DNA of 29,261 bases from a virus, in the IMG/VR virus record IMGVR_UViG_3300009183_000276, positions 1 through 29,261 of that record. The stretch is one strand, 5' to 3'. Under the pieces are notes generated by a model, which worked only from the letters and a program-made list of their open reading frames with translations, ran no database searches and was not told the DNA's origin. Positions 6,252 through 28,685 of the stretch are shown in pieces (positions within the stretch are counted from its first letter, which is position 1; the number at the start of each line of letters is the position of its first letter). Position numbers and translations under genes: made by a program.

Positions 6252-6378
6252 CGTCCCTCAAGTCGCCACGCAACTGTTCGAGGGCGTCCTGCTGGGCTTG
6301 CAAGCGTAGGTAAGCCTCGGTAGCAAACTTGGCCAAGTTCTCGTTTGTCCAGGCTGCAAAGTTTGGTAGGTCGTTCAT
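6211..6378 (-). CDS. Small helical protein, last gene of leftward operon 1
   Basis: This 55-residue hypothetical protein begins MNDLPNFAAW and continues as a single predicted amphipathic helix (ENLAKFATEAYLRLQAQQDAL) ending in Arg-rich KEIRRIRQSDV. Its ATG overlaps the stop of the preceding gene as ATGA (6375-6378). It runs 41 bases into the 3' end of the endolysin gene on the other strand, so the two transcripts are complementary there. No function can be inferred beyond a probable coiled-coil or oligomeric protein. Confidence 0.6.
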   Translation of the reverse strand: MNDLPNFAAWTNENLAKFATEAYLRLQAQQDALEQLRGDLRDAMKEIRRIRQSDV

Positions 6379-6611
6379 GGCATTGGGCAGTTTTCAGGTG
6401 GGACAACAACGCACCAGATGGCGCTCCATTTACCTGGGCCACGGCCTTCCTTGGCAATCCAGCGGTCGATGTAGGCGTCGGGCATCTTCTGCAAGCTGCG
6501 CCCGGCGTTGGTGTAGTTCATGTTGAGGTAGTTGGATATGTCCAGCAGCGTCAAGCCGTCGGCGTACTTGTGCAACAACATTCGTATGCGGTGTTGGGGT
6601 GGCGTGTTCAA
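6375..6611 (-). CDS. Small winged-helix DNA-binding-like protein
   Basis: This 78-residue protein contains a helix-turn-helix pattern: LTLLDISNYLNMNYTNAGRSL (about residues 20-40) has a short helix, a turn and a putative recognition helix, then a basic wing (AKEGRGPGKWSAIW). The start is TTG at 6611 within TTGA, overlapping the previous stop, with AAGGGG upstream; the next in-frame ATG would be ten codons later and lacks such a site. It is probably a transcriptional or replication-associated DNA-binding protein, but the target is unknown. It is the penultimate gene of the leftward operon. Confidence 0.65.
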   Translation of the reverse strand: MNTPPQHRIRMLLHKYADGLTLLDISNYLNMNYTNAGRSLQKMPDAYIDRWIAKEGRGPGKWSAIWCVVVPPENCPMP

Positions 6612-8291: not shown

Positions 8292-9592
8292 AGTTCCTCC
8301 ATTGCAATATCAGAAATAGCGCGCTTGTTGTGCAGCGCCGCCCAGATGCGTTCATCCACCGTTTTGTTGGTCAGCATGACGTAGCACCACACGTCGTGGC
8401 GCTGGCCGCTGCGGTGCAGCCGCCCTACGGTCTGCTCGTACAGTTCGAGCGACCAGGGCAAGGACAGGAAAACAATCCGGCAGCCGCCATGCTGCAAGTT
8501 GAGCCCGTGGCCAGCCGACTTGGGATGCACCAGCAATAGTTCGATGGTGCCAGCGTTCCATCGCTCAATAGCACGGTCGTCGTCCAGCGTCTGGGCGTGC
8601 GGGTAGCGCCGCTTGAGTTCGGCCAGTTCCTCTTGGTAGTTGTAGACAATAAGTGTGTTGGCACGTTGGTTCTCCTCCAGCAACTCGTGCAGCCGGTCAA
8701 ACTTGGCCGTGTCGTACCACACTGGCGTCTGCACCGTGATCCACTTGCCGGGCACGTCTGAGGGCGTCTGTACGGTGTCGTACACAAACCCGCTGGCAAG
8801 CTGCTGCAACTTGCCGGTGACCACGGCGGCGTTGACGGCGGTGATGTCTTCCAGCTTGAAATCTTTTTTCATGGTGTCGTAGGGCTTGCGATTGTTCAAG
8901 TCGCAGCGCACCTCCACCGTATGGAGCGGGGGCAGCTTGTCGCTATACTCGCCTGCGTCCAAGACAAACGTCGCAGGCTTAATCACGGCCATGACCTTCT
9001 CCAAACTGCCCTTGCGCGGTGACCACTCGCCAAAGTCGGGGTTGATTAGCACGAAATACTGCTGCATGAACGCGCCCTTGGAGCGCCCCAGCAGCGCCTG
9101 GTCAACGATCTTGCACTGGCCGAACACATCCTCCAAGCCATTGCTGGTGAACGAACCGGTCAGGCCCCAGCGGATGCCAATGGGCGTCAGGAATTTAAGC
9201 AGGTCTTTGAAGCGCTTGCCGCTGGGGTTCTTCAAGCGCGTCAGTTCGTCAAACACCACCGCGTCAAAGGCGCCCGTGGGCAGGTTCTCGTAGTTGGTCA
9301 CCACCACCTGGGCGTCTGACGCGAAGGCAGCGGCCCGCTGCTTGGCCGTGCCCACGGCAGCGGCCAGCGTGATGTTGGGCGCCCACTTGGGCTGCTCGGT
9401 CGGCCAGACGCTGGCGGCCACGCGCTTGGGCGCCAGCACGAGGAAGCGCTTGGCGTGGCCAGCCAGCAGCATATCCTGCATGGCTGTCAGCGTGATGGCC
9501 GTCTTGCCCGCGCCGACGGGGGCGAGGATCATCGCCCTGTCGCGCTCAAACAGGAAGTCAGCCGCCTGTTCTTGATATGGTCTAAGTTTCAA
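8282..9592 (-). CDS. SF2 helicase/translocase, SNF2-like
   Basis: This is a 436-residue ATP-dependent DNA translocase. The Q-motif region RPYQEQAADFLFE is at residues 4-16 and Walker A APVGAGKT at 24-31. The Walker B position reads VVFDELTRLKN (112-122; DELT rather than DEAH or DEGH). Motif III GLTGSFTSN is at 143-151, a C-terminal helicase lobe has GHGLNLQHG, and motif VI QTVGRLHRSGQ is at 387-397. The GRLHRSGQ form is typical of SNF2-type enzymes. The start is TTG at 9592, inside the end of the methyltransferase gene with GAGG before it; a later ATG (residue 21) would remove the Q-motif. Phages often encode such a helicase beside a VRR-NUC nuclease, and the pair is thought to act in replication or recombination. 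The substrate here is unproven. Confidence 0.88.
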   Translation of the reverse strand: MKLRPYQEQAADFLFERDRAMILAPVGAGKTAITLTAMQDMLLAGHAKRFLVLAPKRVAASVWPTEQPKWAPNITLAAAVGTAKQRAAAFASDAQVVVTNYENLPTGAFDAVVFDELTRLKNPSGKRFKDLLKFLTPIGIRWGLTGSFTSNGLEDVFGQCKIVDQALLGRSKGAFMQQYFVLINPDFGEWSPRKGSLEKVMAVIKPATFVLDAGEYSDKLPPLHTVEVRCDLNNRKPYDTMKKDFKLEDITAVNAAVVTGKLQQLASGFVYDTVQTPSDVPGKWITVQTPVWYDTAKFDRLHELLEENQRANTLIVYNYQEELAELKRRYPHAQTLDDDRAIERWNAGTIELLLVHPKSAGHGLNLQHGGCRIVFLSLPWSLELYEQTVGRLHRSGQRHDVWCYVMLTNKTVDERIWAALHNKRAISDIAMEELCY

Positions 9593-10436
9593 GGTACGCC
9601 TCTATGAGTGCTTGCGCTGCTTGCGGGACGATGGCGTTGCCGTAGGCGCGCAGGCGTCCCACTCTGGCGGTAGCCCCATGAGCCAACGGGAATGTGCTGG
9701 GTTCAACTGGCCGATATTTTCCGTCTCGGCAAGCAAGCCAATCGGCGGGGCGCCAGAAACCAGGCGCGCCGCATTGGGTAACTCGCTGTTTTTGTGTTTC
9801 GCCGCTCCCGCTGACCCTCGTCCATCCGCTCTTAACGGTGTTGGCCAACTCGCCAAATTCGCTGCCGCTTGCAAGCCGGGGGCTGGCCCCCTTTTGTTGT
9901 CCGGCGGTCGAGGCCCACCCGTTGTATCGCCCACTATTGGCGTCGGCCACAAACCAAAGTCGTTGCCGGATGTGCGGCGCGCCGACGCCCGCAGCAGGGA
10001 TACCGACCGCCCCGCAGGCGTAGTCTTCTCTTTCCAAGTCAGTTTGAACAAGGTCGAGCCAACCGTGGTTAGCCGCTGCTTCAACTTGCTCACCAAAGAT
10101 AACTGGAGGGCGGCACTCGCGGATGAGATTGAACCAGACGGGCCAGAGATGGCGCTCATCGGCGGCTCCTTTTTGGTTGCCTGCGGCGCTAAAAGGTTGG
10201 CATGGGCAACTACCCGTCCAAACAGGTCTACTGTCAGGCCATCCTGATTGACGTAGCGCATGGCTCCAGACTCCGATACCAGCAAAGAAATGGCACTGGG
10301 TGTAGCCTGCAAGGTCGGCGGGTTTAACATCTGTAATACTCCGTTCGTCAACAATTCCGTGGGCGATATGCCCTGCGTCTATTAGGTTGCGTAGCCACTG
10401 CGCGGCATACGGGTCAATTTCGTTGTAGTAGTTCAT
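9582..10436 (-). CDS. DNA (cytosine-5)-methyltransferase
   Basis: This 284-residue enzyme transfers a methyl group from S-adenosylmethionine to C5 of cytosine. Motif I is HFFAGIGVWSHAL (residues 49-61). Motif IV is GSCPCQPFS (75-83), with catalytic C79. Motif VI reads GEQV (115-118) rather than the usual ENV, keeping the Glu. Motif VIII is HIRQRLWFVA (155-164), and motif X is AYGNAIVPQAAQALI near the C-terminus. The start at 10436 overlaps the VRR-NUC stop as ATGA; a longer frame upstream lies inside that gene. The target-recognition region is short and its sequence specificity cannot be read. In phages such enzymes usually protect DNA from host restriction. Most of the gene is also read in a second frame (see 9602-10330). 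Confidence 0.92.
   Translation of the reverse strand: MNYYNEIDPYAAQWLRNLIDAGHIAHGIVDERSITDVKPADLAGYTQCHFFAGIGVWSHALRQSGWPDSRPVWTGSCPCQPFSAAGNQKGAADERHLWPVWFNLIRECRPPVIFGEQVEAAANHGWLDLVQTDLEREDYACGAVGIPAAGVGAPHIRQRLWFVADANSGRYNGWASTAGQQKGASPRLASGSEFGELANTVKSGWTRVSGSGETQKQRVTQCGAPGFWRPADWLACRDGKYRPVEPSTFPLAHGATARVGRLRAYGNAIVPQAAQALIEAYLET
9602..10330 (-). CDS. Overprinted protein in alternate frame of methyltransferase gene
   Basis: This 242-residue frame lies almost entirely within the methyltransferase gene, on the same strand in a different frame. It has its own ATG at 10330 with GGAG nine bases upstream. It contains GSTLFKLTWKEKTTPAGRS, then LLRASARRTS, LWPTPIVGD, a second WPTPLRADGRG, and near the end LNPAHSRWLMGLPPEWDACA. 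From memory, these are hallmarks of a recurrent hypothetical protein family of phages: a GSTLYKLTWK core, RASxRRTS, repeated WPTP, and a C-terminal LNPxxxxWLMGxPxxW. The last motif also resembles C-terminal ends annotated on some phage cytosine methyltransferases. No function is known to me. Two frames with recognisable family features over the same DNA is unusual. Homology was not tested here. Confidence 0.6.
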   Translation of the reverse strand: MLNPPTLQATPSAISLLVSESGAMRYVNQDGLTVDLFGRVVAHANLLAPQATKKEPPMSAISGPSGSISSASAALQLSLVSKLKQRLTTVGSTLFKLTWKEKTTPAGRSVSLLRASARRTSGNDFGLWPTPIVGDTTGGPRPPDNKRGPAPGLQAAANLASWPTPLRADGRGSAGAAKHKNSELPNAARLVSGAPPIGLLAETENIGQLNPAHSRWLMGLPPEWDACAPTATPSSRKQRKHS

Positions 10437-10717
10437 TTTTTTAGCTGAATTTTGTTGGCCCACGCTTCTATCTGTTCCTCGTTCCACAAACACAAATACT
10501 TCTGATTCAGCCGGATCATGTCCAAAGCAAATTGCTTTTGGAGTTCTGATAGCCTGCCTTTATCGGTCTTTAATTCCACGAACCAAGTGCTGCCGTCAGG
10601 AAAGCACGCTATCCTGTCGGCTACGCCTTTGCGCCCTGGCGAGGTGAACTTCCACGACCGCCCGCCTGCTCGTGCTACCGTCCAAACAAAATAATTTTCG
10701 ATGTCTTTTTCTTTCAT
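10433..10717 (-). CDS. VRR-NUC domain nuclease
   Basis: This is a 94-residue stand-alone VRR-NUC protein of the PD-(D/E)XK superfamily. The fold signature is visible in order: an N-terminal helix with KDIENYFVWTV, basic GRSWKFTSPGRKGVADRI (residues 19-36, with D34), FVELK (46-50, with E48 and K50 as the ExK pair), then SELQKQF (Q60) and a C-terminal helix. Stand-alone viral members act as structure-specific nucleases, probably on branched DNA. It is the first gene of the leftward operon, directly before the methyltransferase and the SNF2-like helicase. The ATG has no strong ribosome-binding site in view. Confidence 0.88.
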   Translation of the reverse strand: MKEKDIENYFVWTVARAGGRSWKFTSPGRKGVADRIACFPDGSTWFVELKTDKGRLSELQKQFALDMIRLNQKYLCLWNEEQIEAWANKIQLKK

Positions 10718-10728
10718 GTCAAGAAGTT

Positions 10729-10748
10729 TAGCACAAAAAATTATGCTA
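10729..10748. promoter_or_regulatory. Inverted repeat, candidate operator in divergent region
   Basis: TAGCA (10729-10733) and TGCTA (10744-10748) form an inverted repeat with a 10-base AT-rich centre, in the 63-base gap between the divergent nuclease and DUF2800 genes. The right arm overlaps the rightward extended -10 element. The left-facing strand also has a CATAAT (10740-10745) with a TTGATG 15 bases upstream, a weaker promoter candidate for the leftward operon. A regulator bound here could control both directions. This is a short repeat, so confidence is limited. Confidence 0.4.
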
Positions 10749-10752
10749 CACT
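10744..10752 (+). promoter_or_regulatory. Extended -10 promoter for replication operon
   Basis: TGCTACACT contains the TG dinucleotide one base before TACACT, an extended -10 element that can work without a good -35. None is evident 17 bases upstream. It lies 28 bases before the ATG of the DUF2800 gene, which has AAAGGA (10769-10774) as ribosome-binding site. Confidence 0.5.
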
Positions 10753-10780
10753 GAACGCCTCATCAACTAAAGGACGTTAA

Positions 10781-11908
10781 ATGCAACATTCCAGTATCGT
10801 CGGCGGTAGCACCGCCAAGAGGGTAATCAATTGCCCTGGCTCGGTGGCCTTGGTGGCCAAGATGCCGCCCAAGCCTTCCAGCAAATTCGCAGACGAGGGC
10901 ACGCTGCTGCACAACGTGATCGCCGAGATCATCATGTCGGACAACCCGCCCGAGCATTACCTTGGCCACAAGTACGAAGCGCAGGTGCTGACCCAAGAAC
11001 TGATCGACTACAAACTCAAGCCAGCACTGGCTGCGCTTGACGAGATCGACCCCAACAAGGAGATGGAAATTGAAGCCGAAACAAGCGTTAACTTTGGTGA
11101 CTTGCTCCCTGGCGTATTTGGCTCGACTGACCTTATTGGTCGCATGGGCACTCGCGCTGTTGTTCTCGATTGGAAGTTTGGCGACGGTGTTGCTGTGGAT
11201 GTCGAGGAGAACCCGCAACTGATGTTTTACGCTGCGGCTGCCATGCGCACCCCCGCGTCTGCATGGGCCTTTGAGGGCGTCACCGAGATTGAGATGGTGA
11301 TCGTGCAGCCGCCCGCTGTAAAACGCTGGGTGACCACGCCCAAGCGCATCGCTGAATTTGAATTGCAACTGGTGCAGGCCGTCAAGGCGTCCGAGAAACC
11401 CGACGCGGTTCTGCGCGCTGGCGAACATTGCCGCTGGTGCGCAGCCAAGCCGGTGTGCCCACAAATGACCGGCGCAGTTGACCGCGCCCTGAAGACGATC
11501 ATTGACAACCTCGACCCGCCGACCATTGCCACTTATCTTAAAAATGCTGATATGCTGGAGCAGTGGATCACTGACCTGCGCGCCTTGGCGCTCCAACTGC
11601 TGGAGTCTGGCGCCAAACTACCTGACTACAAACTGGTCGCCAAGCGAGCGATCCGTTCATGGACTAGCGAGGACAAGGCCAAGGTCGCCCTGTTCGCGTT
11701 TGGTCTCACCGAATCTGAAGTGTTGGAGACGTCTGTGATCTCTCCGGCCAAAGCTGAGAAGGCGCTCAAAAAGCGCAAGCAGGCTTTGCCGGACGATCTG
11801 GTCGTCGCCATCAGTTCAGGTAACACCTTGGCCAGCGCGGATGATCCACGCCCCGAGGTGATGCTCCTGGGTAAGCAATTAACCGCTGCCCTTTCTAAAC
11901 TCAACTAA
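10781..11908 (+). CDS. DUF2800-type PD-(D/E)XK nuclease with Cas4/AddB-like Fe-S cysteines
   Basis: This 375-residue protein shows the nuclease motifs of the RecB/Cas4/AddB group in order: GTLLH (residues 40-44), GSTD (114-117), LDWK (129-132, giving D130 and K132), and QLMFY (146-150). One cysteine near the N-terminus (C18, in VINCPGS) and three after the core (C217, C220, C226, in HCRWC and KPVCP) match the 1+3 cysteine layout that holds a 4Fe-4S cluster in Cas4 and AddB. It is probably a DNA exonuclease used in phage recombination or end processing. It is the first gene of the rightward replication operon. The C-terminal 140 residues are helical and may be an accessory domain. The family name is by pattern; activity is inferred. 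Confidence 0.85.
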   Translation: MQHSSIVGGSTAKRVINCPGSVALVAKMPPKPSSKFADEGTLLHNVIAEIIMSDNPPEHYLGHKYEAQVLTQELIDYKLKPALAALDEIDPNKEMEIEAETSVNFGDLLPGVFGSTDLIGRMGTRAVVLDWKFGDGVAVDVEENPQLMFYAAAAMRTPASAWAFEGVTEIEMVIVQPPAVKRWVTTPKRIAEFELQLVQAVKASEKPDAVLRAGEHCRWCAAKPVCPQMTGAVDRALKTIIDNLDPPTIATYLKNADMLEQWITDLRALALQLLESGAKLPDYKLVAKRAIRSWTSEDKAKVALFAFGLTESEVLETSVISPAKAEKALKKRKQALPDDLVVAISSGNTLASADDPRPEVMLLGKQLTAALSKLN

Positions 11909-11916
11909 GGACTATC

Positions 11917-12552
11917 ATGTCAAATATAGTAGCGTTCTCCCAAGCGGGCTTGCCCGCAGTTTCCACCCTCGCAACTTCCCTGCGTGCAATTCAATCCGAT
12001 GTCGGCGGCAGCGGCACGGTCATCCTGAAAATGGACAAGACCGGCCACTGGGTGTTTGGTGCAGACCAAACCGAAGTCGAAGACGACAGCACCTGGGCGG
12101 TCAATCCCTTTTCGTTTGTCCACGGCTTCATTGCTTGGGGAGACGGCGAGGTGTTGGGCGAGAAAATGGTGCCCGTGTCCCAACCCCTGCCGGAGTTGGA
12201 CGGGGCGCCCCCAGCCGCCAAGAAGGGTTGGGAAACTCAGGTAGGCATGAGCCTAAAACGCCTGACCGGCGAAGACAAGGGCATGGAAGCGCGCTTCACG
12301 ACCACTTCGGTGGGCGGGAAGAAAGCGGTACAAGCCTTGGCCGTCGCCTTGGCAGATCAGGTCGAGAAAGACCAAAGCAAGCCCGTGCCAGTGGTGTCCC
12401 TCAAGAAGGAACACTATCAGCACAAATCATATGGCCGGATTTTCACGCCGGTCTTTGAGGTAGTGCAGTGGCTTTCGTTGGACGGCGATGCCGAGCCGAA
12501 GAAGGTTGAAGAAGCCCCCGCAGTGGGCCGTCGTCGTCGCGCAGCGGCCTGA
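11917..12552 (+). CDS. Conserved-type phage replication-module protein, possible ssDNA-binding
   Basis: This 211-residue protein has the look of an OB-like or beta-barrel core: GTVILKMDKTGHWVFGADQ, then FVHGFIAWGDGEVLGEKMVP and GWETQVGMSLKRL. A basic-acidic C-terminal tail ends in GRRRRAAA. It lies between the Cas4/AddB-like nuclease and DNA polymerase and its stop overlaps the polymerase start (TGATG). Phage recombination modules often carry a single-stranded DNA-binding protein in that place, so that role is the leading guess, but I see no diagnostic motif and the basic rather than acidic tail is not typical. Ribosome-binding site: AAGGAC about seven bases before the ATG. Confidence 0.65.
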   Translation: MSNIVAFSQAGLPAVSTLATSLRAIQSDVGGSGTVILKMDKTGHWVFGADQTEVEDDSTWAVNPFSFVHGFIAWGDGEVLGEKMVPVSQPLPELDGAPPAAKKGWETQVGMSLKRLTGEDKGMEARFTTTSVGGKKAVQALAVALADQVEKDQSKPVPVVSLKKEHYQHKSYGRIFTPVFEVVQWLSLDGDAEPKKVEEAPAVGRRRRAAA

Positions 12553-14456
12553 TGACTCTCTGGGTTGACTTTGAGACCCGTAGCGCCTGCGACCTGACGG
12601 TCGCGGGCGTTTACAACTACGCCCAGCACCCGAGTACCGAGGTGCTGTGTATGTCGTATGCCTTTGGCGACGATGACGTGCAGACATGGCTGCCCCACCA
12701 ACCTTTTCCTAAATGGCTGATGAGCCGTCACACTGGCCCAATCTACGCCCACAACGCCGCGTTTGAGCGCTTAATTTTTTGGTACGTCTTGCAGATCGAC
12801 TTTGATCTGGAGCAGTTCGTTTGCACCGCAGCGCAGGCCCGCGCCAATTGCGCGCCTGGTTCGCTGGAGGACGTGGGCCGCTTTGCTGGCGCGTCCATGA
12901 AGAAAGACCACCGGGGCGCTCAACTGATCCGCAAGATGTCGATCCCGCCTTACGAGGAATCGCCCGAGTTGACCGCCGAGATGGTGGCCTACTGCGAACA
13001 GGACGTGCGCGCCATGCGGGCGATCAGCAAGGCCATGCGGCCCCTGTCTGCCCAAGAGTTGCAGGACTATCACGTCAACGAGCGCATCAACGATCGTGGC
13101 GTGCTGGTGGACGTGCCCCTGTGCCAAGCCGCCGTCAAGTACGCCAGCGCTGAGTTGGCTGAAATTCAAGAGATCGTCGCCGAGGTGACCGGCGGCGCCA
13201 TCGCCAGCGTGCGCTCCCCCAAGATGCGCGAGTGGGTGCTGGAGCGCGTTGGCCCCGAGGCCAAGAAGCTGATGGAGAAGGACGGCAAGTATTCCATTGA
13301 CAAAACCGTCAGGGCAAACCTGCTGCTGATGGACAACCCTGATGAGGTTCCCCATGACGTTCAAGAAGTCATCCAATGCGCCGACGACCTATGGGCGTCC
13401 TCGGTTGCGAAGTTCAGCCGCCTTGCGGGTCTGGCAGATGAAGAAGATCGACGAGTTCGCGGCGCTTTTGTGTTTGCGGGGGGTTCCGCCACAGGCCGTG
13501 CATCAAGTTATGGCGCTCAAGTCCACAACTTCACCCGAAAATGTGCTCAATCTCCTGAAGATGTGCGCTTGGCGATGGTACGCGGCCACGCAATCGTCCC
13601 CAGGTACGGAAAGCGCGTCACCGACGTCCTCAAAGGGATGCTCCGTCCTGCACTGATACCAGCCAAGGGTAAATACCTAGTCGTGGCCGATTGGTCGGCC
13701 ATTGAGGCTAGGGTAAACCCTTGGTTGTCTGGCAGGGGCGACGAGAAGCTGGCCTTGTTTGCGTCCGGCGAGGACGTGTACAAAGTCAACGCTGCTGCGA
13801 CGTTTGGGGTGTCTGTGTCTCAGGTCAACAAAGACCAGCGCCAGATCGGCAAGGTGCAGGAGTTGGCCTGCGGCTTTGCTGGCGGCGTGGGCGCCTTTGC
13901 TGCGATGGGCCGCGCCTACGGCATCCTGCTGCCCGAGTCGGACGCCCGGCGCATGGTAGACGCATGGCGTAGGGCAAACCCTTGGTCGGTGCCGTACTGG
14001 CAAGACCTAGAATCTGCCTACACCCGAGCGATGCGTAACAAGGGCAAAGAGTTCAGCGCCGGTCGGGTGACCTATATGTTTGACGGCCTGCACCTGTGGT
14101 ACATCCTGCCATCGGGTCGCGTCCTTTGCTACCCCTACGCACGACTGGAAACCGAAGGTGTGACCTACGCTAAAGCCGCTTGGAAACCCGCCGCTGACGC
14201 CAAGGAGTGGCCACGCGCCCGCCTGTGGAAGGGACTGGCCTGCGAGAACATCACCCAGGCCGTGGCCAATGACCTGCTGCGCCATTCGCTGCGCCAGCTT
14301 GACGACGTGGTGCTGCACGTCCACGACGAGATCGTGATCGAAACCAGTACGCCCAACCCCGACGCCCTGCGCTCGGTCATGTGTACCCCGCCCGACTGGG
14401 CCAAGGGTTTACCCCTAGACGCTGAAGTATCAATCATGGAAAGGTATGGAAAATGA
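12552..14456 (+). CDS. DNA polymerase I-type (family A) with 3'-5' exonuclease
   Basis: This is a 634-residue replicative polymerase. The N-terminal proofreading domain has Exo I DFETR (D6, E8), Exo II around YAHNAAFER (H67, N68, F71) and Exo III YCEQD (Y147, D151). The polymerase domain has TGRASSYGAQVHNFTR (about 314-329), motif A VVADWSAIEARV (D380, E385), motif B starting RQIGKVQELACGF (R430, K434) and motif C HVHDEIVIE (589-597, D592). The tyrosine position of the standard motif B is replaced by a GFAGG context, as in other phage enzymes of this compact subgroup. There is no 5'-3' exonuclease domain. The gene overlaps both neighbours by one to four bases, indicating coupled expression with the nuclease and the primase-helicase. 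Confidence 0.93.
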   Translation: MTLWVDFETRSACDLTVAGVYNYAQHPSTEVLCMSYAFGDDDVQTWLPHQPFPKWLMSRHTGPIYAHNAAFERLIFWYVLQIDFDLEQFVCTAAQARANCAPGSLEDVGRFAGASMKKDHRGAQLIRKMSIPPYEESPELTAEMVAYCEQDVRAMRAISKAMRPLSAQELQDYHVNERINDRGVLVDVPLCQAAVKYASAELAEIQEIVAEVTGGAIASVRSPKMREWVLERVGPEAKKLMEKDGKYSIDKTVRANLLLMDNPDEVPHDVQEVIQCADDLWASSVAKFSRLAGLADEEDRRVRGAFVFAGGSATGRASSYGAQVHNFTRKCAQSPEDVRLAMVRGHAIVPRYGKRVTDVLKGMLRPALIPAKGKYLVVADWSAIEARVNPWLSGRGDEKLALFASGEDVYKVNAAATFGVSVSQVNKDQRQIGKVQELACGFAGGVGAFAAMGRAYGILLPESDARRMVDAWRRANPWSVPYWQDLESAYTRAMRNKGKEFSAGRVTYMFDGLHLWYILPSGRVLCYPYARLETEGVTYAKAAWKPAADAKEWPRARLWKGLACENITQAVANDLLRHSLRQLDDVVLHVHDEIVIETSTPNPDALRSVMCTPPDWAKGLPLDAEVSIMERYGK

Positions 14457-16735
14457 GTTTTTTAAAATATCTCGAAGACGTGGCGCCTGAGGGCGAGGTC
14501 ATTTTGTTCGTGCGCCAAAAGCCCATATTGGCCGAGGGCGAGTTGCAATACCATGCCGATGGCGCCATCAAATGCACTTGGCCCGCCTACCTGCCCAAGA
14601 GATGGAAGCCCGACCAGGCGTGGTACGCCAATACCGGCTGCTTCATCATCGACCGATTCGACCAAGGCCGCGCCTCTGCCCGTGCTGATAACTGTGAGCG
14701 GGTCGCCTTCCTCGTGCTGGACGACGTGGGCACCAAGGCCAAGGAGCCGCCCATCGCCCCGACGTGGATCATGGAGACCAGCCCCAATAACTACCAGTAC
14801 GGCTACACTTTCGCGCTGGATGACCAGCCCCTGAAGGCCGACTTCAGCGCCGCCATCGTGGCCATTGCCGAGGCGGGTTACACCGACGGCGGGGCCATCA
14901 ACCCCGTGCGCAACTTTCGACTGCCCGGCTCGGTCAACCTCAAACCAGGCCGCGAGGACTTTGCTTCCCGCCTCGTCGAGTTCAACCCCGAGCGTGAGTT
15001 CTCCCTGCCTCAGATATGCGAGGCGCTGGGCGTGACGCCCAACCCAGCCGACACCGCCACAGTGCGCCCCATACGCCTTACAGACGACGGCGGCGACGAT
15101 GTGCTGGCGTGGGCTGCTGCGCGTGGCGACCTGCTGGAGAAGGGCAATTCAAGCGGCTGGTGGGGCGTGGTCTGCCCCAATCATGGCGAGCATTCAGACG
15201 GCAACCCGATGGGCCGATACAACCCTGTAAGCCGCGCCTACTGCTGCCTGCACGAGCATTGCTCCGAGTTGGACAGCGTGGCCTACTTGGCGTGGGTCGA
15301 GGAGCAGGGCGGTCCAAAGCGAGCCCACGGCCTGCGCGATGAGTTGCTGGCTGCCGTCATGGAGAACACCCTCGCCAAGCTGACCCCCAATGTAGAGTAC
15401 CCCGACGAGGCCGCTGCGGTCATCGCCGAGGTGGAGCGGCGCGAGTTGGGCCGCGTGGAGATGAGCGGGTGGTTCGAGCGGTTTGCGTACATCCAAGACG
15501 ACGACTCTTATTTTGATATGCAAGACCGGCGCGAACTGATGCGCAAGACCTTCAACGCCATGTTCAGGCACATCGACTGCCGGTCGCGTCACGGCAAACA
15601 CGGCAAGGTCGAGGCGTCGGTCGCGTTCGACGAACACCGCCAAGACAAGGGCGCCAGGGCGCTGGTCGGCATCACCTACGCTGCGGGTGAGACTGTGCTG
15701 GTGTCGCGTGAGGGGCTGGTGTACGGCAACCGCTGGCGCGACGCCCGCCCGGCGCCCGTGTCCGGTGACGCGACGCCGTGGCTGCGCCATGTCGAGCGCA
15801 TGGTGCCCATCGACTTCGAGCGCGAACACCTGCTAAACGTCTTGGCCCATAAAGTGCAGTTCCCCAGCCACAAGATCAACCATGCCGTCCTGATGGGCGG
15901 CAATCACGGCTCGGGCAAAGACACCCTCTTTGCGCCGTTCTTTTGGGCCATAGGCGGCAAAGCCAAACTCAATTGCTCGCTGGTCAAGAATGAAGACCTG
16001 ACCAGCCAGTGGGGCTATGCCCTTGAATGTGAAGTGATGGAAATTCAAGAACTGCGCCAGTCAGAGGCCAAAGACCGCCGCGCCTTAGAGAACATCCTAA
16101 AGCCCATCATCGCCGCGCCCCCGGAGTTGCTGACAGTCAACCGCAAGGGTCTGCACCCCTACCAGGCGCTGAACCGCGTGTTCGTGGTCGCGTTCTCCAA
16201 TGAGCGCGTGGCGATTAGTTTGCCCTCAGAGGATCGCCGCTGGTTTGTCCTATGGTCAGATGCGACCAAGATGCCAGAGACAGACGCGCTCAGAATGTGG
16301 AACTGGTACACCATGCGTAGCGGGTTCGAGGCCGTGGCCCATTACCTGCACACCAGAGACGTGTCGGCCTTCAACCCTAACGCCACGCCCCCATTCACTG
16401 AGGCCAAGGCCATCATGGTCGAGCATGGAATGAGCGGAGCAGAATCGTTCCTGGTTAATTTGATCCGCTCCAGATCGCGCGCCTTTAGCGCTGGCGTGGT
16501 CGGCGCGCCCTTCTACGCGTTGTGCGACGAATTGCAGTTATACGCCCCCCAAGGCGTGCGCATTGTGCCCGCTGCGCTGCTGCACGCGTTAAAAGAGGCC
16601 GGATGGCATGATATGGGGCGCCTGGCGTCGCGCGAGTATCAAACCAAAAAGCACATATTTTGCGCGCCTGAATTGGCCCATAGCACGCGCTCAGAGTTGC
16701 GCAGGGCCATAGAAAAAGCCCCCGAAGGGGCTTAA
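14453..16735 (+). CDS. Primase-helicase (prim-pol-like N-terminus, SF3 helicase)
   Basis: This is a 760-residue replication protein. The N-terminal region has FLVLDDVGTK (86-95) and NPVRNFRLPGSVNLKP (150-165), which match the RepB/prim-pol type of primase. A zinc-binding region follows: C241 and H244 (CPNHGEH), then C264/C265, H267 and C270 (YCCLHEHC). The C-terminal helicase has Walker A MGGNHGSGKDTLF (481-493), a Walker B-like VMEIQEL (528-534), and the superfamily 3/DUF5906 segment FVVAFSNERVAISLPSEDRR. It would prime and unwind the phage origin together with the polymerase upstream. The gene 3' end contains a terminator for the opposing operon. Start by ATGA overlap with the polymerase stop. 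Confidence 0.9.
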   Translation: MSFLKYLEDVAPEGEVILFVRQKPILAEGELQYHADGAIKCTWPAYLPKRWKPDQAWYANTGCFIIDRFDQGRASARADNCERVAFLVLDDVGTKAKEPPIAPTWIMETSPNNYQYGYTFALDDQPLKADFSAAIVAIAEAGYTDGGAINPVRNFRLPGSVNLKPGREDFASRLVEFNPEREFSLPQICEALGVTPNPADTATVRPIRLTDDGGDDVLAWAAARGDLLEKGNSSGWWGVVCPNHGEHSDGNPMGRYNPVSRAYCCLHEHCSELDSVAYLAWVEEQGGPKRAHGLRDELLAAVMENTLAKLTPNVEYPDEAAAVIAEVERRELGRVEMSGWFERFAYIQDDDSYFDMQDRRELMRKTFNAMFRHIDCRSRHGKHGKVEASVAFDEHRQDKGARALVGITYAAGETVLVSREGLVYGNRWRDARPAPVSGDATPWLRHVERMVPIDFEREHLLNVLAHKVQFPSHKINHAVLMGGNHGSGKDTLFAPFFWAIGGKAKLNCSLVKNEDLTSQWGYALECEVMEIQELRQSEAKDRRALENILKPIIAAPPELLTVNRKGLHPYQALNRVFVVAFSNERVAISLPSEDRRWFVLWSDATKMPETDALRMWNWYTMRSGFEAVAHYLHTRDVSAFNPNATPPFTEAKAIMVEHGMSGAESFLVNLIRSRSRAFSAGVVGAPFYALCDELQLYAPQGVRIVPAALLHALKEAGWHDMGRLASREYQTKKHIFCAPELAHSTRSELRRAIEKAPEGA
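16711..16733 (-). terminator. Rho-independent terminator of leftward operon 2
   Basis: A perfect 7-bp stem (AAGCCCC at 16716-16722 with GGGGCTT at 16727-16733) closes a four-base loop. Read leftward, the loop is TTCG, the stem ends in CTT and is followed by TTTCT, the form of a strong intrinsic terminator. Read rightward there is no T tract. It lies inside the last codons of the primase-helicase gene. Confidence 0.75.
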
Positions 16736-17600: not shown

Positions 17601-18260
17601 CTACGCTGCCAGGCGCAGATTAATCACGCGATGGCGCGAGCCATGCGCAGGGAATGCCACAATGGCCGCGCGCTGGCGCTGGCATAGTTGACACGTGGCG
17701 CAGCTGACGTCGTCGCGTTGTGTGGCCGGGCAAATAACAACCGGGCGCCCTGCTGGCGTCGTTGTATTGGCCGTCGTCGTTGACGGCACGACGACGACGA
17801 CCGGACCGGCATTTTGATCGGCCAAATAATCGGCATCGGCCAAATCATTGGCGGACAGATTGACAGTAAAGCCCCATGTATTGGCGTGCCGGATCCATGC
17901 GATGCTGGCCGCGTCGCGATGATGCGAATAAGTAAAGCCCCGGCGGCCAGCATTGGCCGCGACCAATTGGCCAAGCTTCACGGCATCAATTGTGCCGTCT
18001 ACTTGGGGTAAATCGCCTGCCTGATTGTGGCGCCACAATTGGCCATCGGGCAGTGCTGCGATCGATTGTGTGAATTGGCCCCATGTGGTGCCGCGTGTGC
18101 CGTTGGAGACTGCCGCCCAATGTAGCGCGAGCGGCCCGCTGGCCGCGTAGCATTCTGCGCGCATGGCGCAGTCTGCCGGGCAGCTGTCGCGCTCTGTGGT
18201 GGATACTGGAATTGGGCCGGTTTTGACATTGGCCGATTTGGGGGATAGGTGCACTTGCAT
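17601..18260 (-). CDS. DUF7227/Gp88-like cysteine-rich protein
   Basis: This 219-residue protein has an N-terminal cysteine cluster, CPADCAMRAECYA (C27, C31, C37). It continues with SGPLALHWAAVS, LPDGQLWRHNQAGDLP (about 70-85), GRRGFTYSHH, and WGFTVNLSAND. A second cluster, CATCQLCQ (C187, C190, C193), is preceded by C177 in VVICPAT. These features match a phage family annotated as DUF7227 and resemble Gp88-type proteins. The cysteines suggest iron-sulfur or zinc binding. No enzymatic function is established to my knowledge. It is the largest gene of the second leftward operon and has a hairpin-plus-AAAGG leader. Codon use is rich in TTG-GCC, giving many GGCC sites. Confidence 0.72.
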   Translation of the reverse strand: MQVHLSPKSANVKTGPIPVSTTERDSCPADCAMRAECYAASGPLALHWAAVSNGTRGTTWGQFTQSIAALPDGQLWRHNQAGDLPQVDGTIDAVKLGQLVAANAGRRGFTYSHHRDAASIAWIRHANTWGFTVNLSANDLADADYLADQNAGPVVVVVPSTTTANTTTPAGRPVVICPATQRDDVSCATCQLCQRQRAAIVAFPAHGSRHRVINLRLAA

Positions 18261-18317: not shown

Positions 18318-18506
18318 TTATGCAATGAATTCGCGATTGTTAACTACGCCATGCGCCAGTGCAATGGCCATGATCTCGTTTTGTGATTTGCTGGTGCGCG
18401 CGGCGCGATACAGTGCGGACAATGCGCGCGCCATGTAATCGGGGCCAAGCCCGGCGGCGCTGTAACGAATGATTGTGCTGATTTCGCGGTTTTCTGATTT
18501 GGTCAT
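18318..18506 (-). CDS. Small protein, first gene of leftward operon 2 (62 aa)
   Basis: This 62-residue hypothetical protein begins MTKSENREISTIIRYSAAGL and continues GPDYMARALSALYRAARTSK, SQNEIMAIALAHGVVNNREF. It is helical and contains a pattern that could be a short helix-turn-helix, but no family is recognised. It has AAAGG seven bases before the ATG at 18506, in a leader duplicated before the next gene. The strong promoter at 18550-18577 lies directly upstream. As the first gene of an early-looking operon it may be a regulator; that is inference. Confidence 0.65.
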   Translation of the reverse strand: MTKSENREISTIIRYSAAGLGPDYMARALSALYRAARTSKSQNEIMAIALAHGVVNNREFIA

Positions 18507-18520
18507 GATTTGCCTTTACT
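18504..18520 (-). repeat. Repeated translation leader, copy before operon-2 first gene
   Basis: The bases AGTAAAGGCAAATCATG on the minus strand are the exact duplicate of 18258-18274. The copy here also follows a hairpin (18526-18545). The repeat ends with the start codon, so it carries the ribosome-binding site. Confidence 0.7.
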
Positions 18521-18525
18521 TTATT

Positions 18526-18545
18526 GCATGGCGATGTTGCCATGC
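18526..18545. promoter_or_regulatory. Inverted repeat at the transcription start of operon 2
   Basis: GCATGGC (18526-18532) and GCCATGC (18539-18545) form a perfect 7-bp inverted repeat around six bases. The expected start of the promoter at 18550-18577 falls at about 18543, so the repeat covers +1 and the first bases of the transcript. It could be an operator or a 5' hairpin in the RNA. Confidence 0.55.
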
Positions 18546-18549
18546 CTGT

Positions 18550-18580
18550 ATTGTAAGGGATTTTCTTGCATTGTCAATGC
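18550..18580 (-). promoter_or_regulatory. Sigma70-type promoter of leftward operon 2 with palindromic -35
   Basis: On the minus strand TTGACA (18572-18577) is a perfect -35 and TACAAT (18550-18555) a near-consensus -10, 16 bases apart. The -35 is embedded in the perfect palindrome GCATTGACAATGC (18568-18580). It would drive the genes from 18506 leftward to the terminator at 16711-16733. Confidence 0.8.
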
Positions 18581-18688
18581 TTATTTTCTAGGTGTTTACC
18601 CTATGTGGGCTGTTTTGTTGGCGTTTTGATGGCGTGATGTTGGCGCTGCGAATCCGGGGCTTTTCGCTCTTAGTTGGCAGTATTGGCT

Positions 18689-18750
18689 GTTTGATTTATA
18701 TATGTTTAGGAATTAATTGTATATTTTATAATGTGAAATGTATGTAAAAG
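18689..18750. other. AT-rich segment, candidate DNA-unwinding element
   Basis: About 62 bases are strongly AT-rich in a GC-rich phage, flanked on both sides by iteron-like repeats. It includes TATAAT at 18727-18732 on the plus strand, a perfect -10 hexamer but with only a weak -35 (TTTAGG) 16 bases upstream. It may be an unwinding element or a promoter for a leader transcript towards the terminase genes. Confidence 0.45.
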
Positions 18751-19017
18751 AGCTGGAGCGATTTAAATTGGCTGTCTAAACCGCCAACACTGCCTACATC
18801 GCCGCCAACCCCATGATTCACGCATAAATCCGCGCGCCACGCTGGCGCATGGTGTTGGCCATGTTGGCTATTTGGTTTGCATGGCCAACACTGCCAACAC
18901 CTGCCAACCTTGACCTGCCAGCCCCAAGCCCGTAACTCGATGGCGTTGGCATAGCCAACATAGCCAACACCTACCGCCCAGGTAATCCCTTAACATTTTG
19001 CGTAGGATTTTGGCTGA

Positions 19018-19046
19018 GGGGGTGGGGGTAGGGCCGAGCGGAAGGG
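19018..19046 (+). other. G-rich tract, possible G-quadruplex
   Basis: Four G runs occur: five G at 19018-19022, five G at 19024-19028, GGG at 19031-19033 and GGG at 19044-19046, with spacers of 1, 2 and 10 bases. It lies between the repeat array and the terminase promoter on the non-template strand. The long last loop makes quadruplex formation uncertain. Confidence 0.35.
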
Positions 19047-19084
19047 CCAACGTTGACGGAGGGCTCACAAACAAAATTTTTTTT

Positions 19085-19093
19085 TGGTATAAA
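19085..19093 (+). promoter_or_regulatory. Extended -10 promoter for packaging/structural genes
   Basis: TGGTATAAA contains TG one base before TATAAA, an extended -10 like that before the replication operon. A TTGACG at 19053 is too far away (29 bases) to serve as -35. A T tract precedes it. The small terminase gene starts 35 bases downstream with AAGGAG (19117-19122). Confidence 0.5.
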
Positions 19094-19127
19094 CTCACAG
19101 CACACGCCACCAGGCGAAGGAGAACAG

Positions 19128-19538
19128 ATGTTCAAATCACTGCCGCTTACAGTTCGCCATGTCAAGGCCACTGAATCGCGCTTGCAAGCAATCTACGACG
19201 CCGGTAAGCTGGGGCTCAAGGGCGACACACTGGCGCTTGCTTCTGGTATGCGACCTGACGAGTACCGCCATTTGTGCCAATTTGACCCACTGGCCGAGAT
19301 GGCCGCAATCAAAGGCAAAGCGGACGGCGAACGCGAGATGGCGCAGATATTGCATAAGGCCGCCCAAGAAGGCGACGCCAAGGCGGCGCTTGAAATCCTC
19401 AAGCACCAACACGGCTGGGTGGCCAAGCAGTCCATCTCGGTGGACATTGACCAGCGCATTTCTATCACCCAGGCGCTTCAAGAAGCCGAGTTGCGCGTAA
19501 TTGAGGTTGTCGATGCAGTCCACCAAATACAGCGCTGA
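19128..19538 (+). CDS. terS: Terminase small subunit
   Basis: This 136-residue protein starts at ATG 19128, which has AAGGAG six bases upstream; an in-frame upstream extension lies in noncoding DNA. The N-terminal part (VRHVKATESRLQAIYDAGKL) and GDTLALASGMRPDEYRHLCQ look like the helix-turn-helix DNA-binding part of small terminases that recognises the packaging site. It is followed by helical KADGEREMAQILHKAAQEGD and AALEILKHQHGWVAK, the latter (LKxxxGW) typical of the family. The C-terminus would contact the large subunit, whose gene overlaps by 26 bases. Assignment rests on motif pattern plus position. Confidence 0.82.
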   Translation: MFKSLPLTVRHVKATESRLQAIYDAGKLGLKGDTLALASGMRPDEYRHLCQFDPLAEMAAIKGKADGEREMAQILHKAAQEGDAKAALEILKHQHGWVAKQSISVDIDQRISITQALQEAELRVIEVVDAVHQIQR

Positions 19539-27508: not shown

Positions 27509-27858
27509 AAAAAATTATTACTCAGTCGGGTAAGTTTGGCCCATATAACAATGTTGAAGTTCTTGATGATCGTTACCATGTAGATGGTGCTGACCTTCCT
27601 TTTACGGTTATTGGACAAGGCGAGATTAGCGATGTTGTAGACGGGGATTTTCCAGTTGTTGTGGTTCGTCCACCGTACGATGAAACAGCAACATCTGTGC
27701 GTGAGCAACGCAGCGCCAAACTGGCCGAGTCGGACTGGACTCAGCTTACCGATGCGCCGATAAACAGCGCGCTGTGGGCTGTCTACCGCCAGCAGCTACG
27801 CGATGTACCTAGTCAAGTTGGCTTTCCGTGGGAGATAAATTGGCCCACACAGCCCTAA
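27505..27858 (+). CDS. Tail fibre assembly chaperone-like protein
   Basis: This 117-residue protein has an N-terminal beta part ([34 protein letters not shown]). The C-terminal domain contains [40 protein letters not shown] and [10 protein letters not shown], a pattern of the phage tail assembly chaperone family. The ATG overlaps the fibre stop (ATGA), so it is made with the fibre it probably helps fold or trim. I take 27505 rather than an upstream in-frame ATG inside the fibre gene. The first half keeps the AT-rich composition of the fibre end, and the composition returns to phage average at about 27700. Confidence 0.8.
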
Positions 27859-27886
27859 AAGATACGGCATAATGCCCGAAAACGTA

Positions 27887-27902
27887 CTGGTGCGCTCACC
27901 AG
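27887..27902 (+). other. Hairpin before scaffold gene
   Basis: CTGGTG and CACCAG form a perfect 6-bp stem with a four-base loop in the 65-base gap between chaperone and scaffold genes. No T tract follows. It may be an RNA processing or translational control element; no clear promoter is seen in the gap. Confidence 0.45.
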
Positions 27903-27923
27903 GGATTCTATGGAATCGAAAAA

Positions 27924-28685
27924 ATGTCAGAAGAAATCCTAGCGGAAGTTGAATCCGTGCCAGATCAGGTTGCAACGGCTGCGCCTGAGACTGAAGTTAA
28001 AACGCCGGAAGTAGAGACGCCCAAGACCTTCACACAAGAAGATTTGGACGCAGCTATTGGAAAACGCCTTGCAAGAGAGCAACGAAAGTGGGAACGGGAA
28101 CAAGCGCAACGCCAAGCAGAAGTGCAGACGTTGAGGGCTCCAGCCGCCCAGTCCGTTGACCAGTTTGAGACACCTGAAGCCTATGCAGAAGCATTGGCCC
28201 TCCAGCGTGCCGAAGAACTTGTCGCCAAACGGGACGCGGCCAAACAGCAATCGCAAATTCTTGAAAGCTACCACGAACGTGAAGAAGAAGCCCGTGGCAA
28301 ATACGAGGACTTTGAACAAGTCGCGTACAACCCCAAACTTCCGATCACCGACGTGATGGCAGAGACGATCCGATCTTCGGATGTTGGGCCTGAGTTAGCT
28401 TACTACCTCGGTTCTAACCCCAAGGACGCGGAACGCATCTCCCGTATGTCGCCACTCGGTCAGGCAAAAGAGATTGGGAAGATTGAAGCCAAATTGGCCG
28501 CTGATCCTCCTATGAAACGTACGACATCCGCGCCAGCGCCAATTTCGCCTGTCACCGCCCGATCCACTGGATCACCGGCCTATGACACTACTGATCCACG
28601 GTCTATCAAGACTATGTCGGATTCGCAGTGGATTGAAGCCGAACGGGCACGCCAGCGTAAGAAGTGGGAAGCGCAAAACCGCTAA
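27924..28685 (+). CDS. Capsid scaffolding protein
   Basis: This 253-residue protein has an acidic, Glu/Pro-rich N-terminus (about 1-35). A long charged helix contains EDLDAAIGKRLAREQRKWER and QFETPEAYAEALALQRAEEL. A globular/helical middle (SSDVGPELAYYLGSNPKDAE) and an Ala/Pro/Ser linker follow, and the C-terminus is basic (SDSQWIEAERARQRKKWEA), like the coat-binding helix-turn-helix at the end of P22 scaffold. The position directly before the coat gene supports the call. It directs procapsid assembly and leaves before DNA packaging. The ribosome-binding site (GGA at about ten bases) is weak. Confidence 0.88.
   Translation: MSEEILAEVESVPDQVATAAPETEVKTPEVETPKTFTQEDLDAAIGKRLAREQRKWEREQAQRQAEVQTLRAPAAQSVDQFETPEAYAEALALQRAEELVAKRDAAKQQSQILESYHEREEEARGKYEDFEQVAYNPKLPITDVMAETIRSSDVGPELAYYLGSNPKDAERISRMSPLGQAKEIGKIEAKLAADPPMKRTTSAPAPISPVTARSTGSPAYDTTDPRSIKTMSDSQWIEAERARQRKKWEAQNR

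Follow-up and report, generated by a model that had tools for sequence, protein, structure and literature searches.

A putative iteron-type replication origin in a podophage genome fragment, with repeats that appear to change in step with the wing of the phage primase-helicase

The window, a 29,261-base linear virus fragment from IMG/VR, carries an array of short repeats that is very probably the replication origin of a podophage, with the repeats (iterons) read by the wing of the C-terminal winged helix of the primase-helicase. The array, its conserved layout, its covariation with the helicase, a blind prediction of its letters and the domain architecture of the helicase were all computed here. 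A first-pass annotation of this DNA had proposed an iteron-type origin, and an origin is the best supported reading of the array; however, the binding proteins that it put forward and a switch in GC skew at the array did not hold up.

The genes of the window are podophage-like and include a family A DNA polymerase, a primase-helicase, a DUF2800 nuclease-like protein, a terminase and a portal. The large terminases of epsilon15-like phages resemble that of the window, and the nearest relatives of the window are nearly all uncultured, metagenome-derived phages. A DNA search with the array region gave no match among named phages, and an Rfam search found nothing. Two relatives of the helicase, at 86% and 64%, are on contigs of one Rhodoferax metagenome bin; therefore, with the usual caution about binning, a betaproteobacterium is a plausible host of the phage.

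The array occupies the stretch that separates the first leftward gene (start 18506) from the small terminase gene (19128-19538, plus strand), and the ORFs overlapping it are short mechanical ones only. The small terminase gene is the ORF 3' of the array, and in relatives its homologues immediately precede the large terminase gene. There are exactly 14 copies of GCCAAC/GTTGGC on the two strands at 18617-19051, which confirms the count reported earlier for this noncoding stretch. In dinucleotide-preserving shuffles of the array region (n=1000), the mean number of GCCAAC copies is 0.7 and the maximum is 4, and the top count for any hexamer is at most 11. The motif had also been described as not reaching such density elsewhere, and indeed the count elsewhere in the window is at most 4 copies per 430-bp stretch. 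The repeat unit is 7 bp (GCCAACA), which is the reading at 9 of the 14 copies, and is found mostly in pairs 9 bp apart. With up to one mismatch to GCCAACA there are 21 sites at 18500-19127. The 9-10 base periodicity noticed before corresponds to tandem pairs 9-10 bp apart, which within the window are confined to the array.

The sites surround an AT-rich core at 18689-18748, which is a candidate unwinding element. The best 60-mer of this block is 85% AT and is centred 409 bp ahead of the small terminase gene, in agreement with the AT-rich block previously placed between a left and a right group of repeats. Left of the core all sites are on the minus strand. These are the left iterons at 18604-18644 (GCCCACA at 18604-18610; GCCAACA at 18616-18622 and 18638-18644) and a pair at 18672-18687 that adjoins the core, with GCCAACT at 18672-18678 and GCCAATA at 18681-18687, 9 bp apart. 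Right of the core the sites are mostly on the plus strand. A conserved box, GCGATTTAAA (18758-18767, plus strand), is ahead of the first plus iterons, which form the right group at 18783-18810 (GCCAACA at 18783-18789, GCCTACA at 18792-18798 and GCCAACC at 18804-18810). This group is followed by a minus-strand pair 9 bp apart at 18853-18868 (18853-18859 and 18862-18868) and a plus-strand triplet at 18884-18909 with spacings of 9-10 bp (starts at 18884, 18893 and 18903); the pair and the triplet make an inverted repeat at 18852-18891. Further iterons at 18944-18969 comprise a minus site (18944-18950) and a plus pair 9 bp apart (18954-18960 and 18963-18969). The array therefore has short sites, spaced in pairs by roughly one helical turn, on both sides of an AT-rich stretch, as in origins of the P4 alpha and SaPI Rep kind. 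Two relatives, L147 and L152, both retain a perfect DnaA-box-like sequence, TTATCCACA, just after their iteron triplet, which suggests that in some of these origins the DnaA protein of the host may be involved.

A G-rich block, GGGGGTGGGGGTAGGGCC...GGGCCAACG (19018-19052, plus strand; also written GGGGGtGGGGGTAGGGCC...GGGCCAACG or GGGGGtGGGGGTAGGGCCGA...), is a candidate packaging or promoter element. In 67 of 82 relatives it is conserved at a distance of about 130 bp ahead of the small terminase gene, independently of the iteron letters. The 14th GCCAAC copy (19046) is inside the GGGCCAACG stretch of this block. Since that stretch recurs in relatives with other iteron letters, the 14th copy is probably not an iteron and is not counted as one. 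The block itself may be a packaging site, a promoter element or a G-quadruplex.

Cumulative GC skew, proposed earlier as a check, does not switch at the array, either in the window or in the nine relatives that were analysed (eight near-complete ones and MW202483). Since there is no consistent switch and the total range in the eight near-complete relatives is only 200-310 G-minus-C, the skew is uninformative for these phages.

The layout of the array is kept in relatives while its letters change. Related loci were fetched with the large terminase or the helicase as the query, and about 190 distinct loci have this array layout at a position about 430 bp ahead of the small terminase gene. The iteron words among them are GCCAACA, GCCGACA, GCCTACA, GCCCACA, GTCCACA, ACCCACA, ACTCACA and ACCCAAA, all of which fit the pattern [G/A]-N-C/T/A-N-A-[C/A]-A. 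Layout statistics were taken from 82 non-redundant phages. The AT core has a median of 77% AT and again precedes the small terminase gene by about 430 bp. To the left of the core, 337 sites are on the minus strand and 78 on the plus strand; to the right of it, 497 are plus and 173 minus. The 9-bp pairing, the orientation and the AT core are thus all retained, which is the outcome that the first-pass annotation had expected of an origin on comparison of motif spacing in related phages. The box (GCGATTTAAA/GCGACTGAAA) is present in 48 of the 82, and the distance from the start of the box to the first plus iteron is usually 16 or 25 bp, two values that differ by one unit. Tandem pairs in the near-complete relatives are at the array locus, except for one isolated pair elsewhere in one phage. 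L163 and L323 have no tandem iteron pairs. L163 also has a translated phrase, GHGRGPSGWSPP, that recurs in several mechanical ORFs at 8400-13500 and points to a dispersed DNA repeat.

Relatives also have other elements near the array. In 22 of the 82 relatives, though not in the window, a palindrome array (about GTTAGTG-n-CACTAAC) separates the iterons from the small terminase gene. Counted from the small terminase gene it extends from -318 to -113 in L041 and from -256 to -130 in L147, and it must be read by a binder other than that of the iterons. L087, L088, L118 and L120 (two of them very close) have a dense GCAGGC/CCTGCC array at the same proximal place. This element turns over fast. In MW202483 (L341) an annotated homing endonuclease gene (27644-28090) is found between the array and the small terminase gene. 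The window has a leftward gene for a DUF7227 protein (17601-18260, E 3e-82), which is present in 22 of the 82 relatives.

The array is intergenic and lies between divergent operons, and in L147 and L152 no more than 60 bp separates an iteron pair from the start codon of the small terminase gene. These features would suit a multi-operator transcription switch, with a repressor or activator binding the array, or with the helicase itself regulating the divergent operons and the late promoter. However, none of the seven small genes of the window that were checked is present in more than 22 of the 82 array carriers, and the letters of the motif are tracked by the primase-helicase. The sigma-70-like promoter of the leftward operon (18550-18577, minus strand; TTGACA, 16 nt, TACAAT; 11/12) is also outside of the array. 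A switch is therefore an unlikely reading, although a regulatory side role of the helicase is possible.

The small leftward proteins, the DUF7227 protein (22/82) and the winged-helix protein encoded at 6375-6611 were considered as binders of the iterons and are too rare among array carriers. Two of them had been named as candidate binders by the first-pass annotation. The gene of the first leftward product (62 aa) occurs in 10 of the 82 array carriers, and the gene at 6375-6611 in two of nine larger genomes.

The proposed iteron-binding initiator is the primase-helicase, a 760-aa protein of the VapE/D5 type (14453-16735, plus strand), on the basis of Pfam DUF5906, fold matches and covariation. 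The helicase region of the NrS-1 primase-polymerase (6k9c) matches it by sequence with an E of 3e-12 and is the top fold match too. A fold search with the model of the protein matched NrS-1, SaPI5 PriRep (7ola, 7pds) and D5-type helicases. The C-terminal winged-helix domain (residues 662-737; 16436-16663, plus strand) is predicted with high confidence (pLDDT mostly 89-97) and consists of helix 662-672, strand 682-684, helices 687-695 and 706-715, and strands 719-724 and 733-737. The last two strands and the loop between them form the wing (16607-16663, plus strand), which contains the covarying residues 721, 723, 725, 727, 730 and 735. When the isolated C-terminal domain was searched, Foldseek gave no confident match (best E 0.24) and VIA-align gave generic winged-helix matches (best Z 6.4). 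An SF3/D5-type primase-helicase with a C-terminal winged helix is thus encoded in the genome of the array. The third helix of a winged helix is the DNA-reading part in many such domains. In this protein that helix (706-715) is nearly invariant among relatives.

The letters of the iterons vary with residues of the wing. A column scan in the 82 phages covered the helicase, the polymerase and both terminase subunits, with 1,419 variable columns in total. The top column is VapE 723 for motif position 1, 730 for position 2, 725 for position 4 and 735 for position 6, the last being followed by VapE 727 and 721. The best predictor of each variable base is therefore within helicase residues 721-735. 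When the sequences are sorted by iteron class, Lys725 is associated with C at base 4, Ser725 with G and Ala725 mostly with A or T. Asp or Glu at 730 accompanies GTCCACA and, together with Lys725, T at base 2. Leu723 accompanies A at base 1; Leu721 and Gly727 accompany ACCCAAA, with Leu721 associated with A at base 6. Judged from these sequences, the phage's own primase-helicase is the protein that tracks the iteron letters, and it does so via its C-terminal wing. The indication that the C-terminal domain specifies the repeat sequence comes from covariation and from blind prediction.

The association is looser for the wing with A725 and Q730, which occurs with GCCAACA arrays in some phages and with mixed GCC[A/C/T]ACA or ACCCACA arrays in others; the phages with mixed GCC[A/C/T]ACA arrays include some that are closely related to the window. 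Since the same wing is found with differing arrays, either Ala725 specifies base 4 loosely or another factor contributes. L239, L240, L242, L092-L105 and L130 have the wing of the window, yet their arrays are mixed (GCC[A/C/T]ACA and ACC[C/T]ACA). These phages perhaps have a relaxed specificity or an origin caught in transition.

Covariation of this kind could also arise by shared ancestry only, if arrays and wings had simply been passed on together within clades and did not bind each other. These phages do share ancestry, and further VapE columns score as well. Independent pairs were therefore compared on a tree of helicase residues 1-640, from which the C-terminus was left out. For residue 725 and base 4, 4.7 of 8 pairs change in the same direction and 0 in the opposite one (median p 0.06). 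For residue 730 and base 2 the figures are 6.1 of 8 and essentially 0 (median p 0.031). These tree-based p-values are modest; however, several independent changes are concordant and essentially none are opposite, which argues against ancestry as the sole cause. A within-clade permutation, in which motif labels were shuffled only inside clades of 80% identity (300 permutations), points the same way. Residue 725 ranks first for bases 2 and 4, with a score reached in 0 of 300 permutations, and residue 730 ranks third for base 2. Bases 1 and 6 are not separated inside close clades, and some columns of TerS and the large terminase score in this test too (TerS 39, z 6.5; TerS 42, z 5.4).

The phages L147 and L152 form a natural pair with helicases that are 92% identical. 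Eight differences occur in the last 120 residues, and five of these are at 724, 725, 730, 732 and 736. The flanking DNA can be aligned, and the five aligned iterons are GCCAACA in one phage and GCCCACA in the other. As read from the alignment, all five have switched together with the wing, and a concerted change in so close a pair is difficult to ascribe to clade structure.

The iterons of further phages could be predicted from the wing. The prediction rules were written down before new phages were fetched with two other helicases as queries. The test set consists of 60 helicases less than 95% identical to any earlier one or to each other, and these proteins are 68-95% identical to the training set. 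An array was callable in 46 of the 60 and not callable in 14. The prediction was correct in 32 of 33 cases for base 4 and in 39 of 46 for base 2; for base 6 it was correct in 44 of 46, compared with 43 of 46 from always guessing C. K725 is found with C in 32 of 33 test cases, against 2 of 13 for other residues (Fisher p 7e-8, relatedness ignored). The combination of K725 and D730 is found with T in 25 of 29, against 0 of 17 (Fisher p 3e-9, relatedness ignored). Met725 occurs with T in all three of its test cases and is a new entry in the base-by-residue table. Since the prediction works at this distance from the training set, and since the top columns are on a wing expected to touch DNA and not at random positions, it is very unlikely that ancestry by itself accounts for the covariation.

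In essentially all relatives the array immediately precedes the terminase genes, a position that would also be expected of a packaging (pac or cos) site, where the small terminase binds repeats upstream of its own gene and cutting starts. The presence of a separate G-rich block upstream of that gene and the TerS columns that score in the within-clade test could be taken in favor of packaging. In the full scan, however, TerS columns lead for no motif position, so that the small terminase, another binder suggested by the first-pass annotation, is not the best tracker of the letters. A TerS about 90% identical to that of the window occurs with GCCAACA, GCCGACA and mixed arrays, and the iteron switch between L147 and L152 goes with changes in the wing of the helicase. 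As a packaging candidate, the conserved G-rich block is also better than the iterons. It is therefore improbable that the iterons are a packaging site.

For the preferred reading, an origin recognized by the primase-helicase, we infer binding, melting, priming and origin use as follows. The 7-bp iterons would be recognized via the wing of the C-terminal winged helix. The primase-helicase would gather on the divergent pairs and triplets on both sides of the AT-rich core, melt the core and then load itself as the helicase. The N-terminal part of the protein would probably prime DNA synthesis. Among related phages, wing residues and all copies of the iteron change together, so that the iterons are largely predictable from the wing and vice versa.

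Origins of this kind, known from P4 alpha and SaPI Rep, have been described before. P4 alpha is a primase-helicase initiator with a Toprim-type primase, and its C-terminal winged helix binds short repeats in the origin (PMC4234260). The type-1 repeats of P4 (NC_001609), TGTTCACA/C, form 9-bp pairs in both orientations. The 9-bp pairing is the same as in the array here, and the repeats are one base from the TGTCCACA class of relatives. P4 has a second cis site (crr), whereas a tandem-pair scan found none in the window fragment or in relatives, apart from the one isolated pair in one phage. A comparison of P4 alpha with the C-terminal profile of the window protein by hhalign, using a profile low in diversity, found no sequence similarity.

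In SaPI Rep and SCCmec Cch2, the C-terminal domain recognizes iterons downstream of its own gene (PMC7581432). The phage system resembles SaPI Rep, PriRep and Cch2 in having iterons 3' of the helicase gene, and the model of the window protein matches SaPI5 PriRep. Unlike SaPI Rep and Cch2, the proposed initiator here is one 760-aa protein encoded by a tailed phage, the motif diversifies with wing residues, and the array is about 2 kb or more downstream of the helicase gene, beyond a leftward operon. NrS-1 is the closest solved relative of the helicase part, and a non-exhaustive search of the literature found no iteron recognition code for it.

Differing iterons among related replicons have been described in other systems. 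In the PLE/ICP1 system, PLE iterons diversify in a manner that evades an origin-cutting nuclease, and Odn, a RepA-mimicking nuclease of ICP1, may exert selection for changed iterons (PMC8263062). Among closely related geminiviruses, differences in the iterons are common (PMC12548392). In both, as is proposed here, the differing iterons of related replicons are matched by their initiators. These initiators (RepA_N in PLE/ICP1, a rolling-circle Rep in geminiviruses) are unrelated to the one proposed here, a primase-helicase that would read the iterons with its wing, and the present data differ in providing a base-by-residue table over about 190 distinct loci. A rapid concerted change of iterons across one phage family, together with a wing-based code, appears to be new. 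No description of the origins of this podophage family was found in the literature, in a search mostly outside of subscription journals.

For the family as a whole, it is likely that in these freshwater podophages the iterons diversify in step with the wing of the helicase and not with the recognition helix, following nearly a base-by-residue code. The result would be many groups of origin specificity, for which satellites, origin-targeting nucleases or co-infecting relatives are possible drivers. The origins of most environmental phages are unknown, and in the present case the sequence alone suffices to assign both an origin and its initiator. The natural variants, L147 and L152 above all, offer a testable case of an initiator that changes its DNA target while the origin is kept. 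A possible driver is escape from parasites that borrow or cut the origin, which ties these phages to phage-satellite conflicts (PMC8263062).
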